A stretch of DNA of 64,000 nt, taken from IMG/VR virus record IMGVR_UViG_3300046742_000152, positions 1 to 64,000 of that record. One strand, 5' to 3'. Below the pieces are notes generated by a model. It was not told where the DNA came from. It ran no database searches and saw only the letters and a list, made by a program, of their open reading frames with translations. Below, piece after piece: positions 13,315-60,715 of the stretch. This DNA is from a virus. Position numbers and translations under genes: made by a program. Position 1 is the stretch's first letter. Every line of letters begins with the position of its first letter.

Positions 13315-13343
13315 ATAGTAATATAGCTACTCTAGCTTGTCAA
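13315..13343 (-). promoter_or_regulatory. Leaderless-type promoter of the 13077-13307 gene
   Basis: TTGACA, 17-base spacer, TACTAT. Seven bases to ATG. The -35 box lies in the final codons of the preceding gene. Confidence 0.7.
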
Positions 13344-13623
13344 GCGTTTTTTTAAACTCTTCATAAGTTATAGCTTCGCTTTTTTCAAAATCTTCGCATG
13401 GTTTTGCGAATTTTATTTTATCTATTTCTAATATTTCTTTGCCATCAATAATGTGTTTATTTACATCGTGAATCATTAACTCTAAAGTATCAAGTAAATC
13501 TTTTGGGTCTTCACCAACAATTTCGGGTTCTTCGCTATGAGCGAAAATTTCTCCATCATCATTATACATAACTTCGTAAAGACCATAAGTATTTTTGTCT
13601 TTAATTATTCTATAATTCCACAT
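13327..13623 (-). CDS. Conserved small protein, MWNYRII family
   Basis: The N-terminus MWNYRIIKDKNTYGLYEVMY and the following HSEEPEIVGEDPKDLLDTLELM match a small family found across bacteria and phages. It folds as strands followed by a helix, with no known activity. Three bases separate it from the upstream gene. Confidence 0.6.
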   Translation of the reverse strand: MWNYRIIKDKNTYGLYEVMYNDDGEIFAHSEEPEIVGEDPKDLLDTLELMIHDVNKHIIDGKEILEIDKIKFAKPCEDFEKSEAITYEEFKKTLDKLE

Positions 13624-13626
13624 TGA

Positions 13627-13953
13627 TTATTCCTCGTACATATAAATTGGAGTAAATTCACCGACATAAGCACCCTCAATATTAAAATGAAAATACTCTA
13701 TCGCCTCTTCATTCGTCATGCCTTCGTTCATTAGTCCACCAATTATTTGGTCGGCAGAGTAAACAACTCTGCCGTCACTAGAATAACCCATGATAGCATG
13801 ATCGTGACCATCAGCGAATAATGCTTCGGGATTATATTCAGCAATCGTTTCCTTTAATTGTTCGACTCGTTCAGATCGAATTTTTCTAATTTTATCTATT
13901 GTATCCATGTTTTTGTTGTCGTTGCAGACGCAATTTTTATCTCTGCAAGCCAT
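13627..13953 (-). CDS. Conserved phage hypothetical protein (108 aa)
   Basis: The C-terminal two-thirds (ALFADGHDHAIMGYSSDGRVVY, then GGLMNEGMTNEEAIEYFHFNI and GAYVGEFTPIYM) belongs to a family common in phage genomes but uncharacterised. The N-terminal 15 residues carry CRDKNCVCN, three cysteines that may not be native to the family. An ATG at 13908 (MDTIDKI) is an alternative start. Confidence 0.65.
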   Translation of the reverse strand: MACRDKNCVCNDNKNMDTIDKIRKIRSERVEQLKETIAEYNPEALFADGHDHAIMGYSSDGRVVYSADQIIGGLMNEGMTNEEAIEYFHFNIEGAYVGEFTPIYMYEE

Positions 13954-14176: not shown

Positions 14177-14378
14177 GGGTTTCACCTACATAATCTCCGC
14201 TTGATAAAATAATGTCTTCAACTAATTGCATGGTTTCATTTTGCATGAAAGGTTCTAACTTGTCAAGCAATTTATTAGCAATCATTTCTTGAGCAGATTC
14301 AGATTGCAAATTAATTTGACAAGTACCTGTGTTGGCACAAGCTATTTCCTTTAAAGTATTAAGTATTATCTCTTTCAT
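14169..14378 (-). CDS. Helical hypothetical protein (69 aa)
   Basis: Not recognised. Glu/Gln-rich helices with two cysteines (CANTGTC) in a short loop. Overlaps its neighbours by 8 and 20 bases. Confidence 0.5.
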   Translation of the reverse strand: MKEIILNTLKEIACANTGTCQINLQSESAQEMIANKLLDKLEPFMQNETMQLVEDIILSSGDYVGETHE

Positions 14379-14604
14379 TGTTTATAGATATTTCAAGGGA
14401 TTTAACAAATTGATTCAATGTCTCTAACCTGCTTTCGGCATCATCTAATAATGATAGAGATTCTTCCGCATTTTTATAAAAATCAGTAGTTGAATGATCT
14501 CCGATACCAATTGGTATTTCCCCTAATAATTTCAAGCTTAATTTTGCTTTAGCTATATCAGCTTCCGCTGAAGTTTTTAACATATTATATAATTCTTTAT
14601 TCAT
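14359..14604 (-). CDS. Helical hypothetical protein (81 aa)
   Basis: Not recognised. Two long amphipathic helices separated by a Gly-rich turn (GEIPIGIGDHS), a helical-hairpin layout. Confidence 0.5.
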   Translation of the reverse strand: MNKELYNMLKTSAEADIAKAKLSLKLLGEIPIGIGDHSTTDFYKNAEESLSLLDDAESRLETLNQFVKSLEISINNERDNT

Positions 14605-14613
14605 TTCATTATT

Positions 14614-14895
14614 TTATTTTTCAATTTTATTTCTACACTCCCAATTTGATTTTACCATTTCTCTTTGCCTTCTAAGTTCATTGCCTTGATTTTTTAATAT
14701 TGCAATAGCTTTGTTTTCATTCATGTCACCATAAAGAACTTTTTGAACGCAAACTTGCACTTCTCTTGCGGTAACTCGATAGGGGAAGTTTCTATAAAGA
14801 AACTTATAAAACTTGCCACTTATTTTGCCGTGCTTTAGTTTTTTATGCAAGAATCTTCTGTAATTGCAGTTTTTAGTATTATGTATTGGTTTCAT
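14614..14895 (-). CDS. Basic hypothetical protein (93 aa)
   Basis: Not recognised. Very basic N-terminal third (RRFLHKKLKHGKISGKFYKFLYR) and helical rest, probably nucleic-acid binding. Ten bases after the next upstream gene. Confidence 0.5.
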   Translation of the reverse strand: MKPIHNTKNCNYRRFLHKKLKHGKISGKFYKFLYRNFPYRVTAREVQVCVQKVLYGDMNENKAIAILKNQGNELRRQREMVKSNWECRNKIEK

Positions 14896-14907
14896 GATTT
14901 AATATAT

Positions 14908-15150
14908 TTATTTGCCATTTTCGCAATCTTTATGCCATTCGGCTACATATTTATTTGAACCCCAAAACCCACACACGCAAGGTTTATTATCTTTTTGATT
15001 TGCTCCATCTTGATAACCCTTGTCGTAAGATTTATTTGCATTTTTACTTAATATTTTTTCAAATTTTTGAGAAAGATATTCTTGTGCATCAGCAAAACCT
15101 TTATCATAACCCCTTTGATAAGAGATTGATTCTGTTATTTCATCATTCAT
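14908..15150 (-). CDS. Small protein with GYxxG repeats and CxC (80 aa)
   Basis: Two related segments, YQRGYDKGFADAQ (about 10-22) and YDKGYQDGANQ (about 42-52), each with aromatic-Gly spacing, are followed by CVCGFWGS. The build resembles short internal repeats of some phage proteins. Unknown role. Confidence 0.5.
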   Translation of the reverse strand: MNDEITESISYQRGYDKGFADAQEYLSQKFEKILSKNANKSYDKGYQDGANQKDNKPCVCGFWGSNKYVAEWHKDCENGK

Positions 15151-15386
15151 TTTCGTTTACCTTTGTTTTCAAATTTTCTCTTCCAATATTTTCCACAATC
15201 TCTTAATTGAGAATTTGCATCTCTAATATATTCTAATGTATCATTGATTAATTGTACTTGTGCGTCTAATGTTTGCGATTTGTTTTGATTTTTTATTTGA
15301 TCTAAAACTTCTTGAATAAAATTAATATACGGACAAGTATCGGGGGGTATTTCGGGTTCTTTATTATTTGGAAAAAGACTATTCAC
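15147..15386 (-). CDS. Hypothetical protein (79 aa)
   Basis: Not recognised. Pro-rich opening (MNSLFPNNKEPEIPPDTCPY), Gln/Asn-rich helical middle and a Lys-rich end. Overlaps the next gene by 4 bases. Confidence 0.5.
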   Translation of the reverse strand: MNSLFPNNKEPEIPPDTCPYINFIQEVLDQIKNQNKSQTLDAQVQLINDTLEYIRDANSQLRDCGKYWKRKFENKGKRK

Positions 15387-15400
15387 ATCATGCCTTTGAT

Positions 15401-15877
15401 TTACGCAAAATGAATTATACGACTATTATCCTCTTTATCGTAATCATGAAATTCATTATGGAAATAAGGTATGGAAATTGGTTCATCTTTCTTGGAGAAT
15501 TTGGAATCTAAAACATTTTCCACAATTTTTTTACAAATAGATTTTTTTGTATAAGTTTTTTTAGAGAAAACCCATGATCCATTTTCAAACTTCATATCAC
15601 CATTATTTAATAATTCATTAAGTTCTTCAATAATTCCTCGATAAATATTGTGAGCGATTATAATTCCCACTTGCTTAAAATTAAATAAATCACTAAGCGA
15701 ATTATTAAAACAAGACTCATATTTAAAAAGAGTATCTTCAATTGCATTATTAAGCTCTAAAGTTTCATCACTAGCACTAAAGTAAAGTTCTTGAAACCAA
15801 GGATCATCTAATAAAAAGAGGATATGTTTAGATAATTCTTCTTTGAATTTATTTTTCTGTTTTCCTATTTCATTCAT
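15401..15877 (-). CDS. Hypothetical protein (158 aa)
   Basis: Not recognised. Start at 15877 (MNEIGKQKNKF) overlaps the end of the upstream gene by 8 bases and lies 8 bases after a weak -10 box. Helical, with a central hydrophobic segment around VGIIIAHNIYRGIIEE, and a Lys-rich C-terminal half. Confidence 0.55.
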   Translation of the reverse strand: MNEIGKQKNKFKEELSKHILFLLDDPWFQELYFSASDETLELNNAIEDTLFKYESCFNNSLSDLFNFKQVGIIIAHNIYRGIIEELNELLNNGDMKFENGSWVFSKKTYTKKSICKKIVENVLDSKFSKKDEPISIPYFHNEFHDYDKEDNSRIIHFA

Positions 15878-16036
15878 ATTTTTTATATTTCCATACTTTT
15901 GCGTCTTTGTCAAGATTGCAACTCAAACCCATTATTCTATTGTATAGAGGATATAGCCAAGCAAAGCAATTATAATAAAATAATTTACTAATTAAGTCTC
16001 CAATGTGATATAATATTTTACTTAGGATCAACCTCA
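15870..16036 (-). CDS. Small putative membrane protein (55 aa)
   Basis: Start taken at 16036 (MRLILSKILYHIG), overlapping the upstream gene by 19 bases. The first 35 residues are hydrophobic and aromatic, followed by a Lys/Tyr-rich tail. One membrane association is likely. Confidence 0.4.
15885..15913 (-). promoter_or_regulatory. Weak leaderless-type promoter of the 15401-15877 gene
   Basis: TTGACA, 17-base spacer, AAATAT. The -35 box and spacing are good and the -10 box is poor. Seven bases to ATG. Confidence 0.35.
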
Positions 16037-16308
16037 TTAAATTTAGCTTTGATTGCTTCCTCGCAAAGTTCATTAAATGTAATACCTTTTTCGTGTGCAA
16101 CCATCATATATTTGAGCAATTGTTCGTCATCAAATTCTAGCTCCACGCTTTCATATTTGACTTTACGAATTAAAACCGAACCATTTTTCTCTTCAAATTT
16201 TAAATCATCACCTTCCTTCCAACCCAATCTTTCAAGAACATCGTTAGGGATAGTAAAAAACAAATCACCATCAGAGGTTTCTTTTAATATCACTTCTTTT
16301 TCAATCAT
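16018..16308 (-). CDS. AbrB/MazE-type DNA-binding protein (96 aa)
   Basis: DLFFTIPNDVLERLGWKEGDDLKFEE (about 15-40) is the swapped-hairpin AbrB domain found in transition-state regulators and in MazE-like antitoxins. A C-terminal helix (about 60-90) follows. Start at 16308 overlaps the upstream TGA as ATGA. No toxin gene of MazF or VapC type is recognisable beside it, so a phage transcription regulator or orphan antitoxin is more likely. Confidence 0.7.
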   Translation of the reverse strand: MIEKEVILKETSDGDLFFTIPNDVLERLGWKEGDDLKFEEKNGSVLIRKVKYESVELEFDDEQLLKYMMVAHEKGITFNELCEEAIKAKFNEVDPK

Positions 16309-50852: not shown

Positions 50853-51662
50853 ATGAAAACAAAAAGAAAAATATTAATAATGGGATTGCCAGGTTCTGGA
50901 AAAACAACTTTGGCAGAAATTCTAGTGAGCAAATTAAACGCCGCATGGTTTAATGCAGATGCTGTAAGGCAAGACATTTATACTGAATTAGGGTTTGATT
51001 ATGAAGATAGAATAAAACATGCTACTAGAATGGGGAAGCTCTGCGATTGGGCTAAAATCGGAGGGAACTATGTTGTGGCAGACTTTGTATGTCCTGTTCA
51101 GGAAACTCGCGAAGCTTTTAATGCAGACTTTGTGGTATGGGTTGACAGAATTCAAGAAGGTAGATATGAAGATACAAATAAAATGTTTGAAAAACCTTTG
51201 GAATACGACATTAGGCTGATAGATGGCAGTCCTGAAGAATGGGCTGAGCAAGTCATTAAAAAATTAAACGAAACCGAGCAGTGGGATAATCAAGCGCCCA
51301 CAGCTTTACTCATAGGAAGGTATCAACCTTTTCATATTGGTCATAAAACTTTAGTAAAAGAAGCTGTAGAGCGTACAGGACAGTGTTGTATAGCTTTAAG
51401 AGATGTAGCAGGTATTGATGAGAAAAATCCATATAATTTTGAGAAAGTAAAGCAAGAGATATACTCAGCATGCGTAGAATTTGGAGATAAAATTAAAGTA
51501 GTAGAGCTTCCAAATATTACTGATGTATTTTATGGAAGAGGAGTAGGTTACAATATAGAACAATTAGAATTAAGCAAAGAGCTACAAGCTGTATCCGCAA
51601 CAAAAATCAGAGCGGGGGAAATTGGTCAAGACGGAAAGCCTACTGGTAAAAGACCTGAGTGA
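50853..51662 (+). CDS. P-loop kinase fused to nucleotidyltransferase (269 aa)
   Basis: N-terminal half: MGLPGSGKTTLAE (Walker A, 10-22) and NADAVRQDI, as in APS kinase (CysC) or polynucleotide-kinase-like enzymes. C-terminal half: GRYQPFHIGH (155-164) and SATKIR (248-253), the HxGH and ISxTxIR motifs of NadM-like NMN adenylyl/cytidylyltransferases. It would phosphorylate a small substrate and then attach a nucleotide, releasing pyrophosphate. The third gene of the operon is a pyrophosphatase. APS-to-PAPS and NAD salvage are both candidates. Confidence 0.65.
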   Translation: MKTKRKILIMGLPGSGKTTLAEILVSKLNAAWFNADAVRQDIYTELGFDYEDRIKHATRMGKLCDWAKIGGNYVVADFVCPVQETREAFNADFVVWVDRIQEGRYEDTNKMFEKPLEYDIRLIDGSPEEWAEQVIKKLNETEQWDNQAPTALLIGRYQPFHIGHKTLVKEAVERTGQCCIALRDVAGIDEKNPYNFEKVKQEIYSACVEFGDKIKVVELPNITDVFYGRGVGYNIEQLELSKELQAVSATKIRAGEIGQDGKPTGKRPE

Positions 51663-52042
51663 TGAAAAAATATAATACAATTTTTTGTGATATAGATGGA
51701 ACTATATTCAAATATAGGCAATTTGCAAATTATACAACCGAAGAGTGTGAAGTGCTGCCAGGAGTATTAAATAAACTAAACTCATGGAAGGATCAGGGTC
51801 ACATGATCATTCTAACAACGGCTAGACCTGAGGATCTTAGAGACTTAACAATTAATGAATTAAATAAAAATAAAATACCATATGATAGGATCATAATGGG
51901 TATTGAAAGGGGCGCAAGGATTTTAATTAATGATAAAGATCCTAAGTTAAATACTCCAAGAGCCCTTGGAATTAATTTGCAGAGGGATCAAGGGATGGTT
52001 TTTGACACAGTTAAACTTGATCCTGAATCAAATATATTTTAA
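51662..52042 (+). CDS. HAD-family phosphatase (126 aa)
   Basis: FCDIDGTIFKYRQF (about 8-21) gives the DxDGT nucleophile motif, TTARPEDL (about 56-63) motif II, and a later LINDKDPKLN the metal-binding Asp pair. A short C1-type cap is absent. ATG overlaps the upstream TGA as TGATG. Removes a phosphate in the operon's pathway. Confidence 0.7.
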   Translation: MKKYNTIFCDIDGTIFKYRQFANYTTEECEVLPGVLNKLNSWKDQGHMIILTTARPEDLRDLTINELNKNKIPYDRIIMGIERGARILINDKDPKLNTPRALGINLQRDQGMVFDTVKLDPESNIF

Positions 52043-52554
52043 TGAAATTAAATCTACAGGCAAAAGAATATCCAGAAACTTTTTTTGGAATAATAGAAAT
52101 TCCAAAAGAATCTAATGTTAAGTGCGAGCTGAATGAAAATTTTAATATGATAGAGTTTGATAGAGAACTTAGTAACTCTATGATATATCCCGCAAATTAT
52201 GGATTTATCCCCTCTACTTTAGCAGAAGATGGAGATCCTGTAGATATAGTCATGCTAGATACAGATCCTCACATTGAGGCAGGAACATTAGTAAAACTAA
52301 AACCGTTAGGTTTGTTAAGAATGATGGATTGTGGATACATTGACAATAAAATTGTCACAACTACAGTAAAAGAAAAAAGTATTAAAGATATTGATGATAT
52401 CTACCCAAGATTTCTTGAAAAAACTAAAGATTTTTTTGCAAATTATAAAAATTTAGACAACCAGAAAGTTATAGTAGAAGATTGGAAAAACGCTGAGGAG
52501 GCTAAAATTTATTTAAAAGATAAATTAATGCCTAAGACAAAATTTCTAAAATAG
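52042..52554 (+). CDS. ppa: Inorganic pyrophosphatase (170 aa)
   Basis: Family I PPase: IIEIPKESNVKCEL (about 18-31), YPANYGFIPSTLAEDGDPVDIVML (about 52-75, with the DGDPVDI metal motif). Hydrolyses PPi, pulling the upstream nucleotidyltransferase forward. Starts at TAATG. Its end overlaps the DUF1501 gene by 23 bases tail to tail. Confidence 0.85.
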   Translation: MKLNLQAKEYPETFFGIIEIPKESNVKCELNENFNMIEFDRELSNSMIYPANYGFIPSTLAEDGDPVDIVMLDTDPHIEAGTLVKLKPLGLLRMMDCGYIDNKIVTTTVKEKSIKDIDDIYPRFLEKTKDFFANYKNLDNQKVIVEDWKNAEEAKIYLKDKLMPKTKFLK

Positions 52555-53812
52555 GAGTGCCTTTATGAGCTATTTGGAACGGTCTTCCAGATGGAGAATA
52601 ATGAATGTCATTTATAGAGAGACCCAAGGCATATGCAATTGTAGCATTTAAATCTTCAGGTCTAACTGGATTCAAGTCAACTTCCATTCCTTTGTCGTCG
52701 CTCTGACCATAAATTGTCCCGCCTTTGATAGCTCCCCCAGCAAAAAAAGCTGAGAAAGCTTTAGGCCAGTGATCTCTACCATCTCTTGGATTAATTTTTG
52801 GTGTGCGACCAAACTCAGATGTTAAAACTACCAACGTCTCATTTAATAAACCTCGGAGTTCAAGATCAAAGAGTAGTGCTCCTAATGCCTTGTCAATGTC
52901 CACGCAATTTGCCGCAACGCGATCAAAGTTATTATCATGTGTATCCCAACCTCCGCGAGTAACTTCTACATAGCGCACTTTATTTTCAATCAATCTTCTG
53001 GCTAGTAAGCATCCCTGACCGAAATTGCTTTCGCCATATAACTCAGTCATCGCTTGTGGCTCAGCTGAAATATCGAAAGCTTTTAAATCTTCACTTTGCA
53101 TTAGTTTTACAGCGTCTTTGTATAAATCAGTATACGCACGAATTTGTTTTTGATTATACCTCTCACTAAACACAGAATTTAATTGCTCAGCTGTTTTTAT
53201 TCTATCGTTAAATTGTGAACTATCTAAATAGTCAGCCATTGAACTGTTTGCTAGCCCCGCCTTAGGATTTCTTATTGGTAAAGCTCCGTAACGAGATTCT
53301 AAAAAGCCAGCTCCCCCTCCTCCTCCTCCAATCTTTACATTAGTGGGAATACTTCTATTTATTGACCCAGAAAGCTTAGAAACCCAGCTGCCAAAAGTAG
53401 GGTGTACAATTGTTCCGCGCTTTTGATAACTCGTATGCATTAAATAGCTAGCCTGTTCATGAGCCCCTTGGTTGCTTGTCACCGAGCGAACAATGGCTGC
53501 ATTATGCATATGCCTCGCAACTGTAGGCAAGTTTTCAGAAAGAAAAACATCATCAACCGTTGTCTTGATAGACTCAATTGGACCTTGGACATCAGGGCTT
53601 TGAGGCTTTGGGTCAAAGGTGTCAAGATGCGACATTGCTCCAGCCATGTTTAAGTAAATAACATGGCGAGCTTTAGCGGGGCGAGAACCTGGTGTTAAAG
53701 CGTAAGCGTTATCATGAATATATGATCCGACCAATGGCATTAAGCCAACTCCCAAATAAGATTTGGCAGCTCTAGCAATAAATTCTCTTCTGTGTATTTC
53801 GTGATTTTTCAT
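52532..53812 (-). CDS. DUF1501 family protein (Tat-exported, 426 aa)
   Basis: An N-terminal RREFIARAA motif (8-16) and following hydrophobic segment form a Tat signal. The rest matches DUF1501, of the alkaline phosphatase/sulfatase-like superfamily: HVIYLNMAGAMSHLDTFDPKP (about 49-69), EFGRTPKINPRDGRDHWP (about 337-354). The family is abundant in Planctomycetes and Verrucomicrobia, and its activity is not settled. ATG is 7 bases after the tmRNA 3' end. I have not seen this family described in phage. Confidence 0.8.
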   Translation of the reverse strand: MKNHEIHRREFIARAAKSYLGVGLMPLVGSYIHDNAYALTPGSRPAKARHVIYLNMAGAMSHLDTFDPKPQSPDVQGPIESIKTTVDDVFLSENLPTVARHMHNAAIVRSVTSNQGAHEQASYLMHTSYQKRGTIVHPTFGSWVSKLSGSINRSIPTNVKIGGGGGGAGFLESRYGALPIRNPKAGLANSSMADYLDSSQFNDRIKTAEQLNSVFSERYNQKQIRAYTDLYKDAVKLMQSEDLKAFDISAEPQAMTELYGESNFGQGCLLARRLIENKVRYVEVTRGGWDTHDNNFDRVAANCVDIDKALGALLFDLELRGLLNETLVVLTSEFGRTPKINPRDGRDHWPKAFSAFFAGGAIKGGTIYGQSDDKGMEVDLNPVRPEDLNATIAYALGLSINDIHYSPSGRPFQIAHKGTPILEILS

Positions 53813-53819
53813 AATAAAT

Positions 53820-54182
53820 TGGTGGACGTGGGGAGAGTCGAACTCCCGTCTTTAAATTTTCAAAAATATACATCTACAAGTTTAGTTTATTTTTTTTTAA
53901 GTTATGACATAAACATCCAACTAACCATTTCAATTATTCGCAGTTTATGATATGGATAAACTTTTATCTGTTTTGCAGATAGATGACCCCACAATCCTTT
54001 TATCTGCGTCAAAGGTTGTAAGGTAGCAGAATTAAGCTGCTAAAGCAAGCTGCTCGCTTTGAGGCGAGTAAGCTTGAATACGTGACTTATTGCCATGTAA
54101 ACTTTTGCATCTTTTTGAGGAGCCAGATGCACTCCTACTTGCAATATACTAATCCAACTTAAATCGAATCCAGTACACGCCC
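53820..54182 (-). ncRNA. ssrA: tmRNA (ssrA)
   Basis: The 5' GGGCGTG pairs with 3' CACGTCC, then ACCA: a full tRNA-like acceptor. The T arm GGGAGTTCGACTCTCCC and GGATTCGAT at the 5' side are standard. The tag reads GNKSRIQAYSPQSEQLALAA, if GGC at 54094-54092 is the resume codon, stopping at 54034-54032. The LAA end is the usual Clp degron. At 363 nt, normal length. Rescues stalled ribosomes and marks products for proteolysis. ClpC-like unfoldase upstream. Confidence 0.92.
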
Positions 54183-54335
54183 ATAAAATTTTAAAGAACA
54201 AGTTATATACTATATACCATAGTAATTGAATTAATTACACATAAATTAAATATTTGTGTATATCATATTATGATACATCACGTTTCTGCACCACAAATAT
54301 TAAGTTTGATAGCGATAGTAATCATTTTAAGTTGC
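54183..54335. other. Intergenic stretch between the ClpC-like gene and the tmRNA
   Basis: About 150 AT-rich bases with no gene. It must hold the tmRNA promoter unless the tmRNA is processed from the ClpC transcript; no TTGACA-class promoter is evident. Confidence 0.4.
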
Positions 54336-56792
54336 TTATAATTTTGTGAAAATAAATTTATTATTTTTATAATCAAACTCAACAGAGTCATTATCGGATA
54401 TTTTTTTTGACAAAATATTTTTACAAAGGACTGATTCTATATGTTGATTAAATAATCTTTCTATAGGTCTTGCTCCCAAATTTAGTTCTTGCAACTTTAA
54501 AAGTAAAAAATCTAAAACGTTTTTTGAAATTTTAATTTTAATCTTTTTACCCTGTAATCTTTTGTTTAGCATTTTAATATAAATTGATATTATATCTTCA
54601 TAGTGATCATTGGTAAAATTTGAAAAAATAATAATATCACTTATACGATTAACAAATTCAGGGGAGAAATGTTTGCAAGCAAGTTTATGAATTTTTTCGT
54701 TGACAATATCTTGATCTATTTCAGCAGAAAGGAAGCCGACTGATTGAGAAGGTTTATCTAAGATGTCACTACCCAAGTTTCCAGTTAAAATAATTAAGCA
54801 ATTTTGAAAATCAGCTGTTCTACCATAGTTATCAGAAAGTTTTCCTTCATCTAATATTGAAAGAAGAGATTTTAATACATCAGGATGAGCCTTTTCAATC
54901 TCATCAAAAAGAACTACGCTGTAAGGCTTTTTGCGAACTTGATCAACTAAGTTACTACCCTCTTCATAGCCGACGTAACCAGGTGATGACCCTGTAATTT
55001 TTGAAGAGCTGGCAGAATCTGAAAACTCTCCCATATCAATTCTAATAATTTTATCTTCTCCTCCAAAAATAAATTTAGACATTTTTTTTGCCATTAAAGT
55101 TTTACCAGTACCAGTTTTCCCCAACAAAAGAAAAACACCCGCTGGTTTGTTCGGGTTATTCAATCCGCAAGCGGCTCTCTGAATGGATTGACAAATTTTT
55201 TGAACAGCAGTATTTTGTCCTATAATTTCTTTTTTAAGATTACCTTCTAATTTTAGATACTTATCATCTGAAGTCGAAGAGATAATTGAAAGTGGGATTT
55301 TAACTTTTTGAGAAATAATTTCTTCTATATTATTCTTCGTGATATATATTTTTTTCTTAGCTATTGTCTTTTGCCACTCATCTAATATTTTTTGATATTT
55401 TTCAAAGAGATCATCAATGCATTCTCCTAAAACTTGCTTCCTATCTTTGTCGGAAGTTGATTCTTCTTGGTCAATTAAAGACTCCAAAGAAGATTCTAGA
55501 TTTAAAATTTCTTGAGGGCGATTAAAATTTTTAACTTTTGCTTTTGCGGCAGCTTCATCTATAATGTCTATAGCCTTGTCAGGTAAAAAACGATCATTGA
55601 TATATCTAGAGCTAAGCTCTACCGCAGCTTCTAGAGCATTTCTTCTAAATTTAACTTGATGAAAAGATTCATATTCTGGCGCTAAGCTTTGCAAAATATT
55701 AAAACAGTCTTTTTTTGAAGGTTCTGAAACTAAAACTGTTTGGAATCTCCTGGATAATGCCGAATCTTTTTCTATAGAGTTCTTGAATTCTTTTAACGTG
55801 GTAGCTCCAATGCATTTTAAATTTCCACGAGCTAGTAAAGGTTTTAAAATATTTGCGGCATCCATTCCCCCTTCGGAATTTCCAGCTCCCATTAAAGTAT
55901 GAATTTCATCAATAAATAAAATATTATAATCAGAAGATTGAACTTGTTTTAAAATTTCTTTCAAACGTTCTTCGAACTGACCTCGATATTTAGTTCCTGC
56001 AATAACACTATTTAGATTTAACCCAAGAACTTGAGAGTTTAAAAGTATATCAGGCACTTGCTTCGATACTATTCTTTGAGCCAAACCTTCTATTAAGGCT
56101 GTTTTTCCCACCCCCGCTTCGCCTAAAATGATTGGATTATTTTTTACACGGCGACATAAAATTTCAATTACTTGGTCGATTTCTTCTTCTCGATTTACGA
56201 CTTGATCAAATTTACCTTCACTGGCTAATGCGGAATAATTAATAGAAAACTGATCTAAAGAGCTTGGCTCAAGATCTTTTTTTGGAGAAGGATTTGATTT
56301 GCGATCCTTAGTTTTGTTTAAAAATTTCTTTAAATCTTTACGCTTTTCTTCGACGTCGCCTTCAAGAGACAATTGAACAGCATCAAAAATAGAATTAGGT
56401 TCCAAATTAAAACTTAAAAATAGATTTTGAACGTTAGGGTTAGATCGTAAAGATAAAAAGATATGCTCAACCCCAACGTAATCATGTCCATAAGTCATGG
56501 CTAATTTAGAAGACTCTCTTAATAAAATTTTAAAGCTTTTTGAATAAGAGATATCAACTCTTTGATCGTTGGGCAAAAAAGAAGCAGGGAACTCTAGGGT
56601 TTTATTTTTTAAATCTTGCATGGAAAACGCAGACTCTCCGCCCATAGAATAAAACAAACTATCTTGAACTTTAAAAATTCCATACACTAAATGTATTGGT
56701 TCAACTAAATTAATCCTAGAATCAACACACAAATTTTTGGCAATTTTAATTGCTTGTTGAACGCGAGGGGTAAAGTTTGGAAGTATATCCAT
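54336..56792 (-). CDS. ClpC-like AAA+ unfoldase (818 aa)
   Basis: Full-length class 1 Clp ATPase: Clp_N repeats (1-150), AAA1 Walker A GEAGVGKT (224-231) and DEIH (295-298), a short M-like region (about 420-480) as in ClpC, and AAA2 Walker A GKTGTGKT (558-565) with DEIEKAH (630-636). The loop ends in VGF (685-687), the ClpP-docking tripeptide lost in ClpB. So it can probably feed host ClpP. Overlaps the polymerase gene as TAATG. Confidence 0.85.
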   Translation of the reverse strand: MDILPNFTPRVQQAIKIAKNLCVDSRINLVEPIHLVYGIFKVQDSLFYSMGGESAFSMQDLKNKTLEFPASFLPNDQRVDISYSKSFKILLRESSKLAMTYGHDYVGVEHIFLSLRSNPNVQNLFLSFNLEPNSIFDAVQLSLEGDVEEKRKDLKKFLNKTKDRKSNPSPKKDLEPSSLDQFSINYSALASEGKFDQVVNREEEIDQVIEILCRRVKNNPIILGEAGVGKTALIEGLAQRIVSKQVPDILLNSQVLGLNLNSVIAGTKYRGQFEERLKEILKQVQSSDYNILFIDEIHTLMGAGNSEGGMDAANILKPLLARGNLKCIGATTLKEFKNSIEKDSALSRRFQTVLVSEPSKKDCFNILQSLAPEYESFHQVKFRRNALEAAVELSSRYINDRFLPDKAIDIIDEAAAKAKVKNFNRPQEILNLESSLESLIDQEESTSDKDRKQVLGECIDDLFEKYQKILDEWQKTIAKKKIYITKNNIEEIISQKVKIPLSIISSTSDDKYLKLEGNLKKEIIGQNTAVQKICQSIQRAACGLNNPNKPAGVFLLLGKTGTGKTLMAKKMSKFIFGGEDKIIRIDMGEFSDSASSSKITGSSPGYVGYEEGSNLVDQVRKKPYSVVLFDEIEKAHPDVLKSLLSILDEGKLSDNYGRTADFQNCLIILTGNLGSDILDKPSQSVGFLSAEIDQDIVNEKIHKLACKHFSPEFVNRISDIIIFSNFTNDHYEDIISIYIKMLNKRLQGKKIKIKISKNVLDFLLLKLQELNLGARPIERLFNQHIESVLCKNILSKKISDNDSVEFDYKNNKFIFTKL

Positions 56793-59332
56793 TATCTGAT
56801 GTCTCCTAATTTCATGTAAATTTTTTCTTGCAAAGGTAAAATATTGTCAGCGAAAATAATGTCCGAAAACTTAGAACCAATTACACCTATTATATCATCT
56901 TTTTCTGGAAGTTTTTTTCCAGAATCTAAATATTCACTGTATTTAGCGCCTCTTGAATTATCCATGAACATTACTGGGTATTTACCATATTCATCATGTA
57001 ATATAAGTTTTACATATTTATTACCATTTCTGCTAGTGCCTTTATAATAATCAAAAACAATTCCAATAAATTTCCCTCTGCAAGAATCATTATTATAAAA
57101 ATCATTTGAATTATATATAATTTCAGAATCATTGAATACAGATTTTAAGTCACTACTATAACTATAACCCAAAAGCTTACTTTCAAAATACCAATTAGCA
57201 AATTTTTCATACTGCTTATTTTGTAAATAAATAGATTTATATTTTTCATATTTTGATTTAAAAGTATTAAATCTAGACTCCTTCATTAAAGGCTTGCCAT
57301 CTTTAGCAATTAAACCTTCTTTTGCGGCAGCGATAATATCTAGCAACATATAATTATATTTGGGAGCTAGGTCAATCGTTAATTTTTTTTCGCGATCAGT
57401 CAAAAGATTAAAGGACTGCGCTTCTAGAGCAAGCAGGGATCGACTGCAAGAATAACTAGGTAAGCAGCCAGCTTGAATCAAAGATGAAAGTATACCAATA
57501 TTAAGACCAGACTCTTTTGCTTGAACAAAAGTTTTAAATTTATTAGGCTGTTTTTTAGATCGAAACTTACTCAAAGATTGCAAAGATTTTTCACTTACAC
57601 CTTTGATGCTATTTAATCCAAATCTAATGTCCGAGTTTTCTTTAGAGAAATCCATTTCAGATCTCTCTAAATCTGGAGGTAATAATTTTATATTAAAAAA
57701 GGATAATTCTTTGCTGATTTGACTAATTTCTTCTTGAGGAGCTGGTTCAAACTTTGTCATTTTTAGCAAACTTAGAAAAAACTCTTGAGTATAATTGAAT
57801 TTTAAAAATGTAGTCCATGCTGCTAGCGTAGAATAGGCTATAGAGTGACTCTTATTAAAAGAATAATTTGCGCTATCTTCAGCGACCTTCCATAATATTT
57901 CACCAACTTCAGGTGGCAGATTATTTAAAGAAACTTTTTCTTTAATTTTATCTTGCCATAAAGACATTTGATCAACTTTTTTCTTTCCAACGATTCTCCT
58001 TAATTGTTCGGATTCGTCAAGGGAGAACCCAATCCTAACAGCCATTTTCATTAACTGCTCTTGGTATAAAGGTATGCCTCCTGTGTAGCTTAATTCTTCA
58101 GCAAAAAAATCATGAATAACATTAGAGTCATTTGTTTTTACGTATTCAGCATAAAGTTCTGTAAACTCCAAAGCCCCTGGACGAGCAATCGCTATAACCG
58201 CGCTAAGCTGCTCTAAACTTTTGGGTTTCACGGTTTTGCATACGCGAAAATTAGTATCAGCTTCAATTTGAAAAAGACCATGTGGAGATCTTAAGCTTTC
58301 TTGAAGAGGTAAGTAAATTGAAGGATCGTCTAAATTAACTTTTTTAATATCTACGTTAATATTATTACACACATCGTAAATAACACTCAATGTTCTTAAC
58401 CCAAGAATATCGAACTTTACCATGAGTTCAGAGACCCAATTCATGTCGTAACCAGTAATAATTGAGCCATCATTGGTGGATTGAAGAGGGCAAATTTCAG
58501 AGATTTTAAAGAATGATATTGCAATGCCAGAAGGGTGGACTCCTGTATTTTTATATAAGCCTTCGAGTTTTCGAGCTATTTTAAAGCACTCAGGATTTTC
58601 TTTTGACCAAGATAAAAACCTTTCACTTTCTTCAGTAGCTTTTTCCAAAGAAAAAACTTTACCAAATTTCTTGGGTATTAGGTCACTCACAGCATTAACA
58701 TCTTTTTCAGAAAACTCACTGACAATTTTTCCGCATTCTTTAATGCATAGCTTGCTGCTTAAACTGTTTAAGGTTAAAATTTTTGAAGTTCTTGAGGGGT
58801 TTTTCGCTTCAATGTAATCAATAACTTTTTGCCTATGCTCGTAAGCAATATCATTATCAACGTCAGCTAATAAGCTTCCGTCAAGATATGTTATTCCATC
58901 TACTTCAATTTTTTTTGCTCGACTTTCTGAAACAAATCGTTCGAAAAATAGTTCATACTTTACGGGGTCAATGCTGGTAACACCGATTAAAAATAAGACT
59001 AATGATCCTGCAGCTGACCCTCGACCAGGTCCGACGGGAATATTATTTTCATGACAAAAGTTAATAATATCCCAATTCAAAAGAATATAATCTGTGAAAC
59101 CAAGTTTGTTTAAAATTTCGAGTTCTGAAGATAATCTGGCAGAATAATTTTTACCTAAACTATTTTCTTTTAATTTTTTATCACACAAATTCTTTAAAAA
59201 AGTAAAATTATCAACATCATCTTTTAAATTTAGGCGTTCGTAGTATTTTTTATCTATTTCGATTTGGGGTAGGCGAACTCCAGGGGGTACACAATTTTTA
59301 TATTCAGTAAAATTATTAAAAAAATTTTTCAT
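56792..59332 (-). CDS. DNA polymerase III alpha, catalytic part (846 aa)
   Basis: C-family polymerase core without its PHP domain: GPGRGSAAGS (101-110), catalytic DVD (D157, D159) and KFDILGLRTL with D308. Finger, thumb and helix-hairpin-helix regions follow, and a C-terminal OB-fold-like segment (about 735-830). It begins at what is position about 250 in DnaE. ATG at 59332 overlaps the exonuclease TAA as TAATG; an ATG at 59350 is less likely. The PHP part is a separate gene at 59960-60715. Confidence 0.9.
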   Translation of the reverse strand: MKNFFNNFTEYKNCVPPGVRLPQIEIDKKYYERLNLKDDVDNFTFLKNLCDKKLKENSLGKNYSARLSSELEILNKLGFTDYILLNWDIINFCHENNIPVGPGRGSAAGSLVLFLIGVTSIDPVKYELFFERFVSESRAKKIEVDGITYLDGSLLADVDNDIAYEHRQKVIDYIEAKNPSRTSKILTLNSLSSKLCIKECGKIVSEFSEKDVNAVSDLIPKKFGKVFSLEKATEESERFLSWSKENPECFKIARKLEGLYKNTGVHPSGIAISFFKISEICPLQSTNDGSIITGYDMNWVSELMVKFDILGLRTLSVIYDVCNNINVDIKKVNLDDPSIYLPLQESLRSPHGLFQIEADTNFRVCKTVKPKSLEQLSAVIAIARPGALEFTELYAEYVKTNDSNVIHDFFAEELSYTGGIPLYQEQLMKMAVRIGFSLDESEQLRRIVGKKKVDQMSLWQDKIKEKVSLNNLPPEVGEILWKVAEDSANYSFNKSHSIAYSTLAAWTTFLKFNYTQEFFLSLLKMTKFEPAPQEEISQISKELSFFNIKLLPPDLERSEMDFSKENSDIRFGLNSIKGVSEKSLQSLSKFRSKKQPNKFKTFVQAKESGLNIGILSSLIQAGCLPSYSCSRSLLALEAQSFNLLTDREKKLTIDLAPKYNYMLLDIIAAAKEGLIAKDGKPLMKESRFNTFKSKYEKYKSIYLQNKQYEKFANWYFESKLLGYSYSSDLKSVFNDSEIIYNSNDFYNNDSCRGKFIGIVFDYYKGTSRNGNKYVKLILHDEYGKYPVMFMDNSRGAKYSEYLDSGKKLPEKDDIIGVIGSKFSDIIFADNILPLQEKIYMKLGDIR

Positions 59333-59970
59333 TATATGTTTGATTTCCAAATCATTGATTTAAATACTTTGAAGTTTTGCTCAATATCGTAAAGCGCATC
59401 ATGAAGTTTGTTTTCGTCAAAATCTATTTTAAATTTCTCACAAAGAGATTTTAAATTAGTTTTTAAACCTCTCTTCTTTATTTTTTGAAGTTTAAATTGC
59501 CACAGCGTTAGATCAGTTTCATCATACTCAATGTCAAGAGCGTTAGCTTTAGCTATACAATTCGTATCTATTAATCTATCTACATAAGAATAATCAGAGC
59601 GTTTTCCGCATAATAATCGATGAATGTTGTGAATGAAAATATCAAAACCTATAATGTTATGACCGACTATATAATAGTCAGGATTATAAATATAACTTTC
59701 AAATAAATTTAAAACTTCCAAAGGGTCTGTAGCTCGTTTTTGATAAACAGACTCTTTGAATCCAGTTACTTGCTTTGCTCCATCAGAAATTTTTAAATCA
59801 TTCCAGCGTAAATAAAAATCATATTTTTTTTCGATTTTATCGTGACTGCAAATTAAAAAAGCTAATTGCCAAGGTTTATTATCTAAGGATGCTAAATTTA
59901 AGCTGCAAGTTTCATAGTCAAAAACTATAAATTTCTTATTTTTTTTAAATCTTAATAAATTAGAGTTCAT
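59332..59970 (-). CDS. DnaQ-type 3'-5' exonuclease (212 aa)
   Basis: DEDDh exonuclease: Exo I FDYET with D18 and E20, Exo II HNIIGFD with D110, and Exo III HDALYD with H190 and D195. Proofreading subunit of the polymerase. The gene lies between those for the PHP domain and the catalytic part of Pol III alpha, and overlaps both (11 bases upstream and TAATG downstream). Start at 59970 chosen over 60024 for domain fit. Confidence 0.85.
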   Translation of the reverse strand: MNSNLLRFKKNKKFIVFDYETCSLNLASLDNKPWQLAFLICSHDKIEKKYDFYLRWNDLKISDGAKQVTGFKESVYQKRATDPLEVLNLFESYIYNPDYYIVGHNIIGFDIFIHNIHRLLCGKRSDYSYVDRLIDTNCIAKANALDIEYDETDLTLWQFKLQKIKKRGLKTNLKSLCEKFKIDFDENKLHDALYDIEQNFKVFKSMIWKSNI

Positions 59971-60715
59971 TGTAATTTTCCTTCCAACTTTCAAAACAAA
60001 ACTCACGACTTCCAAAGCCTTCAAGGTTAGGCTTAGATAGAGAGCTTTTTTTTAAGAAACCTCGATTGCAAATGCATTTATAAGTCTGCAAGGCATCTGC
60101 ATCTTCTCGATTTTTGTAGAAAATGCTTTTAGTTAATTCGGTTTTAAAACCATTATCTTTGCAAAATTTATTAACAATTTTATTTAAAATAAGGTCAGTA
60201 GGTAAATTGTTATTCTCTAAAAAAAAGATAGGATCAGTAAAAGAAAAATTTGGCAAGCAGTTTGAGAACAAAAAACTATTTTGATATAAAAAAGAATCAT
60301 AAAAAGGAATAGCTAGAATTAAATCATCATTATTCCAAAACTTTTTGAGACATTTAAAGGTTCCAACGCCATCAAAATCGCAATGAATTGAGCTATATAT
60401 CAAATTTAGTTTCTTGCAACCCTCATCATTTTTAGCTAAAACAATAACTTTATGAACAGAGGGAGACTCGGTTTCCGAATCACATTTAATCATAAGCCTT
60501 AACCCGAATACCAAATGAATATTTTCTTCTAAAGATATTTTTCTTGCCTGAAGAAAACCAGTTGGAGCATCCTCTATAAGAACGAACTGCTTTAAATCAT
60601 TTTCTAATAAAATATCAAAAATCGAATCAGAGCCTGAAGAGTTAGGAGAGCCTGGAGGATTTAGGGTTAAAATACTTTTGCCTATACTATAATGAGACTT
60701 AAATAAAGGTAACAT
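59960..60715 (-). CDS. Separate PHP-domain subunit of DNA polymerase III alpha (251 aa)
   Basis: Opening LFKSHYSIGKSIL, then DSIFDILLENDLKQFVLIED and a KISLEENIHLVFGLRLMIKC segment match the PHP start of DnaE. ALQTYKCICNRGFLKKSS near the end corresponds to the end of PHP. The metal-binding HxH of active PHP enzymes is replaced by HYS, suggesting a structural role. It stops where the catalytic gene's homology begins. Confidence 0.75.
   Translation of the reverse strand: MLPLFKSHYSIGKSILTLNPPGSPNSSGSDSIFDILLENDLKQFVLIEDAPTGFLQARKISLEENIHLVFGLRLMIKCDSETESPSVHKVIVLAKNDEGCKKLNLIYSSIHCDFDGVGTFKCLKKFWNNDDLILAIPFYDSFLYQNSFLFSNCLPNFSFTDPIFFLENNNLPTDLILNKIVNKFCKDNGFKTELTKSIFYKNREDADALQTYKCICNRGFLKKSSLSKPNLEGFGSREFCFESWKENYNEL

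Follow-up and report, generated by a model that had tools for sequence, protein, structure and literature searches.

Genes at the locus

The window (the whole stretch of 64,000 nucleotides that was analysed) is part of a linear virus record of 73.9 kb, which is itself partial. The genes that concern us here lie on one strand and are listed in Table 1. The stop codon of dnaE overlaps the start codon of clpC (TAATG), clpC is situated 153 bp upstream of the tmRNA gene, and a DUF1501 gene begins 8 bp past the CCA of the tmRNA. The preliminary description of this DNA had paired the tmRNA with the unfoldase in the span 53820–56792, and thereby left out the tight upstream partner of clpC, dnaE.

Table 1. 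Positions of the genes and smaller elements around the tmRNA in the window
Feature	Positions	Strand	Basis
DUF1501 protein	52532–53812	minus	Pfam DUF1501, E 3e-110
One-piece tmRNA gene (ssrA), 363 nt, CCA encoded	53820–54182	minus	Rfam RF00023, 128.5 bits
Tag reading frame and stop, GNKSRIQAYSPQSEQLALAA, resume codon GGC	54032–54094	minus	Frame common to relatives
PK1 pseudoknot upstream of the resume codon	54106–54136	minus	Covariation
clpC–tmRNA intergenic stretch, partly conserved with L003	54183–54335	minus	Alignment
ClpC-type unfoldase (class 1 Clp ATPase) of 818 aa, with N domain, D1, short middle domain and D2	54336–56792	minus	
VGF, residues 685–687, predicted ClpP-docking loop	54732–54740	minus	Alignment with B. 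subtilis ClpC
dnaE, DNA polymerase III alpha core	56792–59350	minus	Pfam PF07733/PF17657

The stretch between clpC and the tmRNA possibly holds a promoter or an operator; a search of it for promoters and terminators gave nothing above the shuffled background. In the related phage contig L003, the gene at the DUF1501 position is absent and a pyrophosphatase follows the tmRNA instead. The DUF1501 gene of the window is an accessory gene, inserted relative to L003. A DUF1501 gene also directly follows the tmRNA in distant phages (a close copy in L359, 4809–6089, and a sequence-similar gene in L025, 12950–14233), and in L034 a DUF1549/DUF1553 gene (14195–16222) begins directly after the tmRNA. The N-terminus of the DUF1501 protein of the window resembles a Tat signal. 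On the opposite strand, a cassette at 50853–52554 encodes a kinase/nucleotidyltransferase fusion, a HAD phosphatase and an inorganic pyrophosphatase, and is kept also in L003 and G096 (L359). The DNA polymerase III alpha of the window appears to be split into an N-terminal part (59960–60715), a DnaQ-like exonuclease (59332–60024) and the core, in a gene order identical to that of L003.

The tmRNA gene

The tmRNA was the only one found in the window by cmscan, as a full-length match to the Rfam model (E 6e-50), with a score far beyond the gathering score of 47. The acceptor stem (GGGCGUG/CACGUCC) is paired in all seven positions, including the alanine identity pair G3.U70; an intact T arm and the 3′ end ACCA are also encoded. 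The strand carrying the tmRNA folds with a z-score of −4.7, which none of 100 shuffled sequences equalled. The pseudoknot PK1 comprises the stems AGGAG/CUCCU and UGCAUC/GAUGCA, most pairs of which are retained in 57–65 of 66 phage tmRNAs with numerous compensatory changes; in the second stem, conservation is lower at the two outermost pairs, the first (40 of the 66) and the last (51). The resume codon, GGC (54092–54094), was set through comparison with relatives, and the frame which it opens runs to TAA (54032–54034), giving a tag of 20 amino acids. Thus, the intact acceptor and T arm, and the tag ending in LALAA, that had been reported for this gene are all borne out. Complete by sequence, fold and covariation, the tmRNA of the window is apparently a working one. 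A chance match was rejected because of the Rfam score, the covariation and the selection on the tag (see below), and a pseudogene, decoy or integration scar because the tag is intact and selected.

ARAGORN, run on the window, did not report this tmRNA, and in L003 (10610–11048) it began the tag at an internal codon. Phage tmRNAs can, therefore, be missed or misread by this program, and counts and tags of phage tmRNAs that are based on it may be unreliable.

The ClpC-type unfoldase

The protein encoded upstream of the tmRNA belongs to phrog_4871 (742 bits), and its best solved relatives are the ClpC proteins of Bacillus subtilis (587 bits) and Staphylococcus aureus (586 bits). The earlier reading of this neighbour as a class 1 Clp ATPase with VGF in the ClpP loop agrees with the alignment to B. 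subtilis ClpC, in which the VGF of the phage protein falls on the VGF of the ClpP loop. Among 67 viral relatives the loop reads [VILM]GF in 64, although the flanking residues vary, and the Walker A and B motifs of the two AAA+ modules, D1 and D2, and the pore loops are intact. The Pfam match to Clp_N (21.9 bits) is barely above the cut-off of 20.7. In an AlphaFold2 model (pLDDT 82.7, pTM 0.54), the VGF is within a flexible loop of low pLDDT, the middle domain is short (helices 427–445 and 449–479), and the PDB folds closest to it are those of ClpC–ClpP and MecA–ClpC–ClpP complexes. The top NCBIfam scores are for ClpB, at 748 bits, short of the equivalog cut-off of 1232, and there is no ClpC model among the matches. 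The best reading of the gene is that it encodes a ClpC predicted to dock ClpP, because the VGF loop is aligned and retained, the motifs are intact, the modelled middle domain is short and the fold matches are to ClpC–ClpP. A scan of the genome collection found no close bacterial relatives of the window ClpC. Many ClpC matches in the phage collection (e.g., in records OR846837 and OR844991) are probably contamination of phage assemblies by bacterial contigs.

No gene for ClpP or SmpB was found in the partial 73.9-kb record, which accords with the earlier remark that no ClpP was visible. Among 45 records with both clpC and a tmRNA, SmpB is missing in 44, so that host SmpB would be needed. ClpP is missing in 41 of these records and present in four (G033, G045, G036 and G022). 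In G033, clpP is directly upstream of clpC, with the tmRNA 1.5 kb away; in G045, clpP is 0.7 kb from the tmRNA; and G036, a phage of 270 kb, has tmRNA, SmpB, ClpP and ClpC together. No phage ClpS adaptor was found in 32 records.

Co-occurrence and spacing of clpC and the tmRNA

ClpC relatives were taken from viral contigs (82 records), and 24 of these had a tmRNA above the Rfam cut-off. In the other direction, ClpC was present in 21 of 38 records selected by a tmRNA 5′-end motif, and in 14 of the 16 such records of at least 95 kb, counts to be read in the light of a motif that derives from clpC phages, records that are fragments and related phages that are counted repeatedly. ClpC was present in none of 41 control records selected by a random 15-mer; given total lengths of 3.5 Mb (motif) and 1.9 Mb (control), zero clpC in the control would be expected about once in 10,000 under equal density. 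A tmRNA without clpC is not rare, being found in eight of the 41 control records, seven of which look like one phage type (equal length and score). Among huge and cultured phages with Clp ATPases, two of eight have a tmRNA; under stricter filters none was found in Klebsiella phage fENko-Kae01, Salmonella phage Munch or Sinorhizobium phage Phosso, all of which have Clp ATPases. A permuted (alpha-type) tmRNA was considered as an explanation for clpC phages lacking a tmRNA and was rejected, as none was found in 20 records, the window included.

Where both genes are present, 40 of the 45 records have them on one strand. In 25, the tmRNA follows clpC on that strand at a distance of no more than 6.5 kb, and in six (plus L254) at less than 200 bp, whereas in about a third it is more than 10 kb away or on the opposite strand. 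On the ClpC tree, the arrangement with less than 200 bp occurs in two separate clades; a third clade has the tmRNA 1.3–1.4 kb from clpC with one ORF between, a fourth has it at 5.7 kb, and phages in a clade whose ClpC lacks the N domain have a spacing of 2.0–2.6 kb. L254 and L005 are 97–99% identical over their shared DNA, but only one of them has a 2.7-kb gene block separating clpC from the tmRNA; this implies that the junction takes up cargo and that adjacency can be lost in this way. The consistent adjacency expected of a dedicated tmRNA–ClpC operon is not seen across the members. L004, a phage of the ClpC group, also has a GOLLD RNA (13316–13722, 314 bits) on the opposite strand, 0.3 kb from its tmRNA.

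Tag peptides

The phage tmRNAs from these searches gave 68 distinct tag frames of 20–41 amino acids, under an extraction that demanded at least 12 amino acids, a final Ala and the common start pair; tags below that length, such as ANDNVYALAA (L139 and L180), fall outside the 68. Control phages lacking clpC have tmRNA tags of 12 and 14 amino acids (ALTGVTQLALAA and ANNDIEFEDYALAA). The types comprise GNK[SN]R[IV]..LALAA (20–21 amino acids), a basic type of 31–33 amino acids with an internal duplication (GNKNRVRALGFKNRLAAKRFGFKGRKLALAA), acidic types of 34–41 amino acids (GEGYYSIEELLEAAREEYDNLVQFEQAEELEMVA) and further basic forms of 38 amino acids. Phage tags often end in MVA, AVA, SVA or TVA. 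In groups of close tags, pN/pS is 0.18 (31 amino acids), 0.28 (34 amino acids) and 0.43 (the 20-amino acid GN.. group, to which the window belongs); therefore, the tags are translated and constrained. A tblastn search with six tag types for a phage gene from which the odd tags could have originated yielded only one more tmRNA tag, GNTIAKLSTLGLIRTEEVTVA, in L055 (14141–14203, about 2 kb downstream of clpC); Rfam had missed this tmRNA because it is cut off by the contig end.

The tag of L003 is of an acidic type unlike that of the window, yet the two ClpC proteins are 80% identical. With tag types placed on the 39 tips of the ClpC tree, at least 15 switches of type are needed; tag and ClpC are thus not locked together in their evolution, and the same tree gave no sign of co-specialisation between them.

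A Halobacteriovorax metagenome-assembled genome (MAG; L396, 1501–1866; L395; L249) contains a related phage contig. A contig of more than 1 Mb in this MAG, which is probably of the host, encodes the tag ANNDFAPAMAA (11 amino acids), unlike the phage tag. Halobacteriovorax may point to the host, provided that the binning is correct; the MAG contigs L249 and L254 are phage contigs, and the binning may be wrong.

Possible partnership with the tmRNA or with dnaE

In the group that includes the window, dnaE ends 3–78 bp before clpC in every dnaE–clpC locus examined, also where no tmRNA is visible. The link of clpC with dnaE is thus closer than that with the tmRNA, and ClpC may serve replication first. 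Taken further, ClpC would be a member of a replication module, translationally coupled to dnaE, and would act with host ClpP to remodel or degrade proteins of replication; the tmRNA would merely end the gene block and act alone via host ClpXP. The handling of the lambda O protein by ClpXP is a precedent for Clp action on a replication protein. The stop–start overlap in the window and the great distance of the tmRNA from clpC in several phages also speak for this explanation, which is nonetheless rather unlikely, as clp genes and tmRNA lie close together also where no dnaE relative was found beside clpC (2.0–2.6 kb in the clade of L004, L059 and L068; 5.1 kb in L033; and G033, with its clpP), and as G045 has clpP beside the tmRNA. 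The loci without an adjoining dnaE keep alive the suggestion in the preliminary description that tmRNA and ClpC belong to one phage-controlled unit of rescue and degradation. What stands of it is a clp–tmRNA neighbourhood that recurs in several ClpC clades, some with clpP beside; set against a fixed unit are the stricter link to dnaE, the phages with a distant tmRNA, the free swapping of tag types and the near-constant lack of SmpB.

Two other explanations concern the nature of the genes themselves. If the unfoldase acted without ClpP, in the manner of ClpB, as a disaggregase of virion or replication proteins or as their chaperone, the best NCBIfam scores would be accounted for, though these are far under the cut-off; the ClpC-type short middle domain of the model and the conservation of the VGF/IGF loop, which ClpB is not known to have, make this very improbable. 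Slighter still is the chance that the tmRNA is a decoy titrating host SmpB, as proposed for the tag-less tmRNA of DS6A, or the scar of an integration into host ssrA: integration often takes place at tmRNA genes (PMC11915505), and a phage tmRNA consisting only of the tRNA-like part is known to inhibit host tmRNA (PMC4131195), but here purifying selection acts on a complete tag frame, the PK1 pairs covary, and the phage tags are wholly unlike the bacterial tags met in this work.

Proposed role

On balance, the evidence leans towards the phage tmRNA and a ClpP-dependent ClpC both serving protein quality control during infection. It consists of an intact tmRNA whose tag frame is under selection, ATPase and ClpP-loop motifs that are unbroken, and a recurring neighbourhood; clpP beside clpC in G033 is indirect support for the predicted binding of ClpC to ClpP and for degradation. 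The phage tmRNA would be charged by host AlaRS, loaded by host SmpB, and would enter ribosomes stalled on broken messages, which would be abundant after the destruction of host DNA and mRNA. The stalled chains would receive the long phage tag and would be degraded by Clp proteases, i.e., phage ClpC docked on host ClpP and/or host ClpXP/ClpAP, so that ribosomes would be freed and amino acids recycled under phage control. That ClpC itself reads the tag is a tentative and somewhat doubtful addition. It is an unlikely, more speculative extension that a large group of marine phages has a private pathway, in which phage ClpC, seated on host ClpP or, in a few phages, on a phage ClpP, recognises the long tags as degrons. 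Tag types would then be swapped between phages like cassettes, with a better fit to the host or evasion of its adaptors and proteases as possible gains.

In a large group of uncultured phages, the recurring pairing and the unusually long and varied tags suggest a phage-run version of bacterial protein quality control during infection. Recurrence of the tmRNA beside a presumably ClpP-competent unfoldase bears on the question of why phages carry tmRNAs. As the tags vary strongly in length and charge under selection, phage control of rescue and proteolysis becomes testable, protease by tag, and the natural tags and Clp parts are on offer for controlled degradation.

Comparison with known systems

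Taken singly, tmRNA, SmpB and Clp proteins have each been described from phages (PMC9004378, PMC7162821, PMC4131195, PMC11242549); a literature search of incomplete coverage found no account of a recurring clpC–tmRNA neighbourhood or of long, swapping phage tags. One survey gives tmRNAs, by ARAGORN, in 402 of 18,146 phage genomes, Melnitz among them (PMC9004378), and tmRNAs of mycobacteriophages and phage G have been described (PMC4131195). The window resembles Melnitz and these other phages in having a complete tmRNA gene in a lytic phage, with presumed rescue via host SmpB. The tmRNA of Melnitz is in two pieces and under glutamine riboswitch control, and no clp gene is discussed alongside it in the available part of the report (PMC9004378), whereas that of the window is in one piece and adjoins a phage clpC; the tags here are also much longer and more varied than those of Melnitz and other phage tmRNAs. 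Quality-control genes likewise share a genome with a tmRNA in huge phages that encode SmpB (PMC7162821) and in Sinorhizobium phage AP-J-162, which has several Clp proteins (PMC11242549), although no tmRNA–clpC neighbourhood or tag analysis was found in either report.

The phage protein is like ClpC/MecB of B. subtilis and S. aureus in its domain order, Walker and pore motifs, short middle domain and VGF/IGF ClpP loop; it differs in belonging to a diverged phage clade (about 36% identity, from the fold match), in having no ClpS in sight and in being coupled to dnaE. The system as a whole can be compared with ssrA and ClpXP/ClpAP of Escherichia coli, in that a C-terminal degron ending in Ala is made by a tmRNA. 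Bacterial tags are most frequently 10 amino acids long (PMC11915505), and the ssrA tag of E. coli is about that length, whereas the phage tags have 20–41 amino acids and are strongly basic or acidic, and the unfoldase is of the ClpC type.
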